Made by a program: the position numbers and the translations under genes. From NCBI GenBank assembly GCA_009391845.1, contig QWJG01000007.1, positions 1-32,862 on the forward strand: 32,862 nt of DNA, read 5' to 3'. Within the stretch, counting starts at the first letter, position 1; every line of letters starts with the position of its first letter. The notes below the pieces were generated by a model that was given only the letters and a program-made list of their open reading frames with translations, was not told where the DNA came from and did not search any database. The stretch comes from Chloroflexota bacterium (GTDB lineage Bacteria; Chloroflexota; Dehalococcoidia; UBA2979). This document shows positions 16,878 to 18,563 of this stretch, one piece after another.

Positions 16878-18563
16878 ATGAACGACCAACGGGCCCGATC
16901 CCGGGGATCCGCTCGCGAGGGCGGGGCCGAGGGCAAGGGTGAGGAGGAACAGGCGCACCTCACGCCGCACACGCTCTTCGATTATCTCGAAGCCGCGCGG
17001 CGCGCCGATGCAACCGAGCAGGCGCTCGGCGCCGTCGAGGAGACGCTGGTCTCCGGAGCCGACGCCGCCTTCGAGGCGGCGATCGAGGATGCAATGGCTA
17101 CCGCTCCGCTCCCCACGAAGCAGCAGTCGCTCCCCGCAAAGTCCCCCGATCTGCCGGAACGGATGGCGAAGCCGCCGTCCCGGCTCGATCTGAGCGCGGA
17201 GGTGCCGTCCCCGGCGATCGCCTCCGAGTTCGAGCGCGTGCCGGACGACGAACCGTCCGTCGCGCCGGTCAGCGAGCTGCCTGTCGAAGCTGCCACGCCG
17301 GCGGCGACTGGACGCTCGGCGGAGATGCAGAACCACACGAATCGATCAGCAATCGCGAATGACAGCACGGACGCCCGGCGTCCGGCGGAGGGGACCCAGC
17401 AGATGGCCACCGAGAGAAAGACCACGAACACCGGCACGACCTTCAGCGATCACGATCTGGAGGGCTTGCCACCGATCAAGGTCATCGGCGTCGGGGGCGG
17501 TGGATCGAATGCCGTCAACCGCATGATGGAGTCGCGGCTCCCGGGCGTGCAGTACGTCGCCGTGAACACCGACCTGCAGGCCCTGGAGGCTTGTAACGCG
17601 GAGCTGAAGGTGCGCATCGGCGACCGGCTCACCCGCGGCCTGGGCGCCGGCAGCGATCCGTTGCGCGGCAACCGCGCCGCCGAGGAGTCCCGCGAACTGA
17701 TCGCGGAAGCGCTGCAGGGCGCGGAGATGGCCTTCGTCACGGCCTGCCTCGGCGGTGGCACCGGTACCGGCGCCGCCCCGATCGTCGCGGAGGTCGCCCG
17801 TGAGATTGGCGCGCTCACCATCGGTGTGGTCACCAAGCCGTTCAGCTTCGAGGGCGCCAAGCGCCGTCAGCAGGCTGAGGACGGCGTTCGCGACCTGCAG
17901 GACAAGGTCGACACGCTGATCATCATCCCGAACGATCGACTGCTTCAGCTGAACAGCGAAGATCTCTCAATCGAGGACGCCTTCCGCGCCGCGGACGACG
18001 TGCTGCGCCAGGGCATCCAGGGCATCAGCGAGCTGATCACGGTGCCTGGCATGGTGAACCTGGACTTCGCGGACGTACGCAAGGTGATGACCGACGCCGG
18101 CCCGGCGCTGATGGCGATCGGCACCGGCCGAGGTGAGAACCGTGCCGTGGAAGCCGCCCGCCAGGCGATCTCCAGCCCGCTGCTGGAGGTCGACATCACC
18201 GGCGCCACCGGCGTGCTGTTCAACGTCACCGGGCCGAAGAACCTCAGCCTCCGCGAGCTGGACGCCGCCGCGCGCGTGATCGCCGAGGTCGTCGACCCGG
18301 ACGCCGAGATCATCTTCGGTACGAGCATGGACGAATCGCTCACGGACGAGGTGCGGATCACCGTGATCGCCACCGGCTTCAGCGGAAACCGCCCGACGAC
18401 GATGCGCCGCACGATCGAGGAGATCGAGCAGACGCCGTACAAGGCGCCGCCGCTGCCGCAGGCAGTCAAGCTCGGGGAGCTGCGGCCGGAGCCGATGTCT
18501 CCGGACACGCTCAACGAGGCAGACCTCCCGACGTTCCTGCGTCGGTCCTTCCCGAGCCGCTAG
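16878..18563 (+). CDS. ftsZ: Cell division GTPase FtsZ with long N-terminal extension
   Basis: FtsZ forms the tubulin-like division ring. The conserved GTPase begins near residue 195 of the long form: IKVIGVGGGGSNAVNRM, then the tubulin signature GGGTGTG at 292-298, the T7 loop NLDFADVRKVM, and the C-terminal FtsA-binding peptide DLPTFLRRSFPSR at the very end. Upstream of the core the frame stays open for 175 codons to ATG 16878, which has GGGGG 6 nt before it; this part has GC-rich third positions like coding DNA. Its first ~75 residues look helical (TLFDYLEAARRADATEQALG) and the rest is Pro/Ser/Ala-rich. A second start at 17403 with GGAGGGG 9 nt upstream would give a standard 386-residue FtsZ. 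Long form is 561 residues; both may be made. Confidence 0.93.
   Translation: MNDQRARSRGSAREGGAEGKGEEEQAHLTPHTLFDYLEAARRADATEQALGAVEETLVSGADAAFEAAIEDAMATAPLPTKQQSLPAKSPDLPERMAKPPSRLDLSAEVPSPAIASEFERVPDDEPSVAPVSELPVEAATPAATGRSAEMQNHTNRSAIANDSTDARRPAEGTQQMATERKTTNTGTTFSDHDLEGLPPIKVIGVGGGGSNAVNRMMESRLPGVQYVAVNTDLQALEACNAELKVRIGDRLTRGLGAGSDPLRGNRAAEESRELIAEALQGAEMAFVTACLGGGTGTGAAPIVAEVAREIGALTIGVVTKPFSFEGAKRRQQAEDGVRDLQDKVDTLIIIPNDRLLQLNSEDLSIEDAFRAADDVLRQGIQGISELITVPGMVNLDFADVRKVMTDAGPALMAIGTGRGENRAVEAARQAISSPLLEVDITGATGVLFNVTGPKNLSLRELDAAARVIAEVVDPDAEIIFGTSMDESLTDEVRITVIATGFSGNRPTTMRRTIEEIEQTPYKAPPLPQAVKLGELRPEPMSPDTLNEADLPTFLRRSFPSR

Follow-up and report, generated by a model that had tools for sequence, protein, structure and literature searches.

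An N-terminal arm with a near-invariant peptide and a conserved candidate internal start in ftsZ of a Dehalococcoidia clade

Known FtsZ N-termini and the ftsZ locus of the window

Few bacterial proteins have been studied as thoroughly as FtsZ, yet its N-terminus has been treated as a minor tail. The general layout of the protein includes a variable C-terminal linker and a conserved C-terminal peptide. Two in-frame starts are known from infB of E. coli, in which long and short forms are produced from one message with the help of an internal ribosome site. In Anabaena, the N-terminal peptide of FtsZ affects polymer shape and its removal abolishes the interaction with SepF; segregation failed when only FtsZ without this peptide was present, according to the accessible part of the source (PMC6175996). 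The same part reports homologues of this peptide only as FtsZ N-termini in Cyanobacteria, and they are often mis-annotated (PMC6175996). In archaea, the N-terminal amphipathic helix of Odinarchaeota FtsZ1 binds the membrane, as stated in the available portion of that report (PMC12583498).

The window, which is the whole stretch of DNA analyzed here, comprises 32,862 nucleotides of a Chloroflexota genome. It contains a division and cell-wall cluster recognized by Pfam profiles, with ftsW at 9824, murG at 10798, a Mur ligase gene at 12096, ddl at 13523, an ftsQ-type gene at 14191, and then ftsA and ftsZ. The frame of ftsZ is free of stops from ATG 16878 to the stop codon at 18561–18563 and encodes 561 residues, or 386 residues from a second ATG at 17403. 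An earlier note, made from the sequence alone, had described this frame together with GGGGG (16867–16871) at a spacing of 6 nt from the first ATG and GGAGGGG (17387–17393) at a spacing of 9 nt from the second, and both were confirmed in the sequence of the window. The short C-terminal linker of about 45 residues that it described is also present, since the FtsZ_C domain ends at residue 501 and the terminal peptide begins at 549. The product is FtsZ by curated cut-offs (TIGR00065, and PF00091 with PF12327), C-terminal peptide included, and scored 151.6 bits with the Tubulin profile, 116.5 bits with FtsZ_C and 414.1 bits with TIGR00065 (cut-off 295.2). A further in-frame ATG is located at 16854. 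The pairing predicted at its ribosome site is weak (−2.4 kcal/mol, compared with −10.5 kcal/mol for 16878), and the nearest of the loci compared, L001, starts with MNDQR, identical to the residues from 16878; 16878 is therefore the better long start. FtsA, encoded directly upstream, ends in ...GGLMRRVAHLMRVVLPQ. The features of the locus are as follows.

15326–16774 (+): ftsA, directly upstream of ftsZ; the C-terminal end of its product resembles a membrane helix.
16866–16871 (+): Shine-Dalgarno-like AGGGGG for the long start; duplex with the anti-Shine-Dalgarno core −10.5 kcal/mol.
16878–17402 (+): N-terminal extension (arm) of 175 codons, present only in the long FtsZ; in frame, conserved in relatives, dN/dS below 1.
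16974–17000 (+): motif 1, LFDYLEAAR (consensus LFDYLxxAR), near-invariant; no variation at L33, F34, Y36, L37 and A40 among 46 long FtsZ chosen for alignment.
16974–17102 (+): predicted helix, residues 33–75, beginning with motif 1; AlphaFold2, pLDDT of the block about 69–82.
17184–17231 (+): motif 2, LDLSAEVPSPAIASEF (consensus LDLSAEPPxxxxSEF(D/E)); in 22 extensions D104 is invariant and L105, S116 and E117 are conserved in at least 90%.
17387–17393 (+): internal Shine-Dalgarno GGAGGGG, a conserved site; −10.0 kcal/mol.
17403–18563 (+): predicted short FtsZ, the canonical 386-residue form from ATG 17403; indicated by the frame, domain matches and gene-caller starts in relatives.
17475–18380 (+): FtsZ GTPase and C-terminal domains (PF00091, PF12327); profile matches, with TIGR00065 over its cut-off.
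18522–18545 (+): canonical FtsZ C-terminal peptide DLPTFLRR; DLPTFLR invariant and the last R in at least 90% of a 46-row alignment of chosen sequences.

Other genes of the window lie downstream of ftsZ. An NrdR-type repressor and a ribonucleotide reductase are encoded at 19844–20539 (+) and 21499–23718 (+), and NrdR-like frame matches occur in many of the relatives' ftsZ loci too. A 284-residue frame at 18778–19632 (−) is 71% identical to a frame of L001 and has no Pfam or NCBIfam match. A large serine recombinase with resolvase and recombinase domains is encoded at 31155–32657 (−) and possibly marks a mobile element.

Conservation of the extension and its motifs

At the base composition of the window, the chance of 175 stop-free codons is about 0.04. 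The open frame alone is therefore weak evidence, and relatives were needed to decide. Relatives of FtsZ were obtained from a scan of genome contigs, of which the best 80 of 359 were used, MAGs mostly labelled Dehalococcoidia or Chloroflexi, and 36 distinct ftsZ loci with a G-loop were compared after removal of near-duplicates, with the window counted in. In this alignment, which the earlier note had proposed as a check, the extension and motif 1 are conserved. The extension runs unbroken with motif 1 into FtsZ in 28 of the 36 loci (window included; the start of L098 is an arbitrary cut beside a GTG), seven loci are cut by a contig end before motif 1 (L002, L004, L007, L008, L010, L111 and L112), and only one, L113 of genome G135, carries a stop. 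L113 has motif 1 and an in-frame TAA in the linker before the internal start. The TAA of G135 (L113, L136) could be an assembly error, a natural split or the mark of a species that manages without a fused arm. L013 is truncated inside FtsZ.

Selection on the extension was measured as Nei-Gojobori dN/dS in 17 chosen close pairs, some of which share members. Values for the extension ranged from 0.17 to 0.84, mostly 0.2–0.5, and the upper bootstrap bound was below 1 in 15 of the 17 pairs, so that the dN/dS check named in the earlier note indicates purifying selection; the two bounds above 1 belong to L003/L005 and L011/L012. The FtsZ core gave 0.00–0.10 in the same pairs. Motif 1 showed no non-synonymous change in 14 of the 17 pairs and synonymous changes in 16. 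A wider pair set suffers from frequent saturation of dS and an uncertain alignment of the linker; among the pairs listed, its maxima were 0.94 for the extension in distant pairs and 1.23 for motif 1 in L108/L109. Change in the extension is third-position-biased in most pairs. In L011, L012, L102, L105 and L107, the stop of ftsA and the long start share 4 nt, which leaves no space for a leader in these five loci. At E 1e-4, tblastn with the window's extension matched only G001 and G320 besides its own locus among the relatives' genomes compared (6 matches of the sense frame from these two genomes), and the antisense frames over the extension (16827–17336 and 16982–17437, minus strand) gave no match in the same relatives. 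Judged from these codon-level comparisons, the extension at 16878–17402 is a protein-coding, selected arm and not a leader, because it is conserved in relatives. Outside its motifs, by the tblastn result, the arm is fast-diverging.

The motifs were followed in the best 120 of 7999 FtsZ matches, which with the query make 121 proteins, 115 of which fit the G-loop expression. Among these matches, a looser form of motif 1 was found in 87 of the 90 FtsZ whose G-loop is preceded by 80 residues or more (query included), and the strict motif 2 pattern, LDLSAEPPxxxxSEF(D/E), in 59 of the same 90. When the query and the window's own entry are left out, LF(D/E)YL stands within the first 120 residues in 91 of the 119 matches listed. 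For nineteen others, gene callers place the start at the internal site, no more than 30 residues from LPPI. Nine show neither, being mostly fragments or starts inside the linker, and one of these nine, P0016, reads LFDYP. In the 46 chosen long FtsZ, from which P0016 was left out, L33, F34, Y36, L37 and A40 are as invariant as the GTPase residues. When 22 of the 28 extensions were aligned without the core, LFDYL and D104 showed no variation. The distance from motif 1 to the G-loop varies from 74 to 340 residues across loci. The earlier note had described a helical segment of about 75 residues. One helix is indeed predicted by AlphaFold2, at residues 33–75, but with 43 residues it is shorter than described, and most of the extension outside it is of low confidence.

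As a DNA pattern, LFDYLxxAR was matched once per genome in 29 of the 393 class genomes, and the reversed pattern used as a control matched 8 of the 393. In 27 of the 29 places the contig carries ftsZ sequence downstream; the place in G079 lies where the contig breaks off behind an ftsA-type end, so that 28 of the 29 places are at ftsZ, and that in G061 is a 64-residue frame unrelated to FtsZ. Motif 1 thus appears in FtsZ only, except for one chance place, as far as these 393 genomes go. The pattern undercounts carriers, as G011, G012 and contig-cut members were missed (L011 and L012 read LFDYLAAR with a different spacing). As FtsZ was identified in 375 of the 393 genomes, most of the class is without the exact peptide. 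Among 301 Chloroflexota genomes, the pattern occurs in G001 and in two FtsZ-less frames of 370 and 520 residues. Occurrence of the motif in other proteins was also considered and rejected. An extension-only profile compared with 5.8 billion proteins, with scoring of the best 7996 candidates that shared most words within length limits, gave 7 matches of 63–229 residues, which on inspection resemble 5' fragments or erroneous gene calls of arm-bearing FtsZ.

In a tree of 54 FtsZ cores, from which duplicates and short cores were dropped, all motif carriers fall in one 33-row clade (support 100/100) composed of 24 carriers, 7 contig-cut rows, G135 and G095. Its deepest row, L111, is contig-cut, with motif 2 present and the motif 1 region missing. 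The extension of G095 (L161), a low-GC member, carries NFFDLFKSN N-terminally as an in-frame variant, which suggests a motif core of the type aromatic-Asp-hydrophobic. Sister group 1 (seven rows, 99/96; L144–L146, L148, L151, L155 and L162) has an in-frame arm with an MFEEE-type segment. Sister group 2 (four rows, 100/100; L149, L150, L152 and L153) has an in-frame arm with WDPE...GQPILPG or similar. The contig of L007 is titled Dehalococcoides mccartyi; its FtsZ groups with the motif-1 clade, and it is probably a mislabelled MAG.

The annotation of arm-bearing FtsZ has a gap. Among the best 120 of 7999 matches, seven of the eight nr-sourced entries (P0028, P0032, P0038, P0049, P0055, P0066, P0078 and P0089) are without it. 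Six of them, of 363–365 residues, start at the internal start, P0028 (410 residues) starts inside the linker, and only P0038 (597 residues) has the whole arm. P0038 is labelled Streptomyces sp. and carries an FtsZ of the motif-1 clade.

The internal start and the proposed two forms

An in-frame ATG lies within 44 codons before the G-loop in 34 of the 36 loci (rows that include close relatives), and L010 and L071 have only GTG at the internal start. The residues before the internal Met vary by lineage (GGQT, QERN, KEPA, QEHR, EGTQQ), whereas the DNA that encodes them is mostly purine-rich and GGAG-like across lineages. Predicted pairing with the anti-Shine-Dalgarno core was analyzed in 15 representatives that share less than 93% identity in their first 150 core residues. 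At the internal start it averaged −8.4 kcal/mol, compared with −3.4 kcal/mol at 135 other in-frame ATGs (p 2e-8) and −4.2 kcal/mol at all in-frame codons. Synonymous shuffles averaged −6.3 kcal/mol, and 0 of 1000 were as low as observed. Taken singly, only two of the 15 representatives (L007, L110) beat their own shuffles at 0.05, and the site of L009 pairs less well than its shuffled versions; pairing is modest, −4.1 to −4.6 kcal/mol, in L006, L009, L112 and L113. Across nine close pairs, the seven codons that precede the internal start show reduced synonymous change, with 5 changes in 35.7 sites; the remainder of the extension has 291 in 673.5 sites (binomial p 1.7e-4, Poisson 0.002). These results point to selection on the internal ribosome site at the DNA level.

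In 21 of 28 loci, the strongest of the candidate codons for the long start, selected in retrospect, reached −6.6 kcal/mol or lower. A ribosome site and a start codon are conserved at both places, with weaker sites or GTG in some relatives. The arms of the sister groups also have a Shine-Dalgarno-like site at the Met just before the FtsZ core. In the set of 14 loci outside the clade plus G095, pairing averages −9.0 kcal/mol at the nearest Met, and in three of these loci the better site precedes another Met. Two starts in use would be expected to leave a double-start pattern of this kind. The two isoforms of 561 and 386 residues proposed in the earlier note are plausible in that the arm is coding and the second start is kept; that both are made in the cell is what we infer from this pattern.

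We consider it probable that one ftsZ gene with two in-frame starts specifies a peptide-armed long FtsZ and a canonical short FtsZ. Initiation at 16878 would give the long form, in which a mostly disordered arm carries at its tip the short helical peptide LFDYLxxAR, followed by the second box, LDLSAEPPxxxxSEFD, and a variable linker that joins the arm to canonical FtsZ. Initiation at 17403, with its own ribosome-binding site, would give canonical FtsZ without the arm. The long and short forms would co-polymerize, the arm would present its peptide to a putative partner, and the ratio of the two forms would set the density at which the ring is decorated. The N- and C-termini of FtsZ leave opposite faces of the filament, and the peptide would act on the membrane-distal side of the ring, probably by binding a protein. 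With its conserved tip and variable linker, the arm is laid out like a tethered peptide ligand. Through the conserved internal start, the stoichiometry of FtsZ forms would be set by translation.

The arm may instead act in cis, a doubtful reading that is compatible with two isoforms, in which the peptide binds FtsZ itself or a neighboring subunit and alters polymer shape or bundling. Motif 1 is seen in FtsZ only, one chance place in the 393 class genomes aside, and Anabaena filaments without the N-terminal peptide change from toroids to thick bundles, according to the accessible part of PMC6175996. However, a motif-to-G-loop distance that varies from 74 to 340 residues is no less suited to the tethering of a separate partner.

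It is unlikely that only the long FtsZ is made and that the internal ATG with its Shine-Dalgarno site is a relic of an ancestral short start, kept by protein constraint or chance. The short form resembles ordinary FtsZ, sister groups with other arms share the Met at this place, and single loci are mostly not significant against their own shuffles. A relic kept in this way agrees poorly with residues that vary before the Met while the DNA remains GGAG-like, and the pooled synonymous shuffles and the synonymous rates indicate DNA-level selection.

Candidate partners and comparison with known systems

Known partners of FtsZ were searched by profile in the genomes of relatives. SepF was found in none of the 44 genomes of the clade and its sister groups (the window's own genome is not among them) and in 7 of 14 controls, in agreement with the earlier note, which had stated its absence from the cluster. 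ZapA (controls 4 of 14) and DivIVA (controls 7 of 14) were each found in 0 of 20 genomes, an absence that rests on Pfam profiles in draft genomes. SepF, ZapA and DivIVA were accordingly set aside as partners of the arm in the genomes searched. FtsA was found in all 20 genomes searched, with the best match on the ftsZ contig each time (controls 9 of 14), which makes the replacement of a membrane anchor unnecessary as an idea. The earlier note had suggested that the arm recruits such an anchor in place of SepF. This suggestion is not upheld, as FtsA adjoins ftsZ, DLPTFLRR is kept and the arm peptide is not membrane-like. The AlphaFold2 model shows a helix and indicates no docking partner. A partner on the cytoplasmic side or an effect on the polymer in cis is, as a guess, a better one than the replacement of a SepF anchor.

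The arm peptide is about as conserved as the C-terminal peptide, which implies a further partner, SepF, ZapA and DivIVA not having been found. For the same reason, it is proposed that the arm perhaps does the job of the filament cross-linkers. We put forward only tentatively the fuller reading that the clade tunes its ring through two isoforms, with the LFDYLxxAR arm replacing the cross-linkers and binding, on the cytoplasmic side, a putative partner from the divisome or the nucleoid; the sister clades would do likewise with other motifs, sharing the double-start layout.

The hydrophobic moment of the arm peptide over 18 residues is 0.14–0.42 and its charge −4 to +1 in 28 loci, and a membrane helix was rejected on charge, moment and strict residue conservation. 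Lipid-binding helices, unlike the arm peptide, are not known to be conserved in their exact residues. A membrane tether like that of Odinarchaeota FtsZ1 is very improbable: the peptide is predicted by AlphaFold2 to be helical and the Odinarchaeota helix is a precedent (PMC12583498, accessible part), but the computed moment and charge in the 28 loci do not fit a lipid-binding amphipathic helix of this type, the exact residues are conserved and FtsA is present. That only the short FtsZ is made and the upstream frame is an untranslated or regulatory leader is hardly credible, since the armless nr-sourced entries (seven of eight among the matches listed) and the only mild improbability (about 0.04) of 175 stop-free codons are contradicted by codon-level conservation (dN/dS below 1, third-position bias, a near-invariant peptide), by the overlap of the long start with ftsA in five loci and by antisense frames without relatives at E 1e-4.

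The arm resembles the C-terminal linker and peptide of FtsZ, being a disordered variable linker tipped by a conserved short peptide, but it is N-terminal, additional to an intact C-terminal peptide and removable by the choice of start codon. The two forms proposed for ftsZ would arise through an internal ribosome site, as in infB of E. coli. A literature search, with most subscription papers outside its coverage, found no LFDYLxxAR arm or dual-start ftsZ, and the accessible part of PMC9871819 contains nothing on either. Like FtsZ of Anabaena and heterocyst-forming cyanobacteria, as described in the available text, FtsZ of this clade has a clade-specific conserved peptide before its core (PMC6175996). 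The Anabaena N-terminus has about 50–60 residues, whereas the Chloroflexota arm has 73–339 codons before the internal start; the Chloroflexota motif appears to be a different one, a SepF dependence of the Anabaena type does not fit relatives with SepF in 0 of 44 genomes, and the internal start is conserved (PMC6175996). Odinarchaeota FtsZ1 likewise has a helix N-terminal to the FtsZ core; according to the portion available, that helix binds the membrane, whereas the charge, moment and conservation of the Chloroflexota peptide argue for protein binding (PMC12583498). Functional FtsZ N-termini are known elsewhere, and the LFDYLxxAR motif together with the conserved double start appears to be new.
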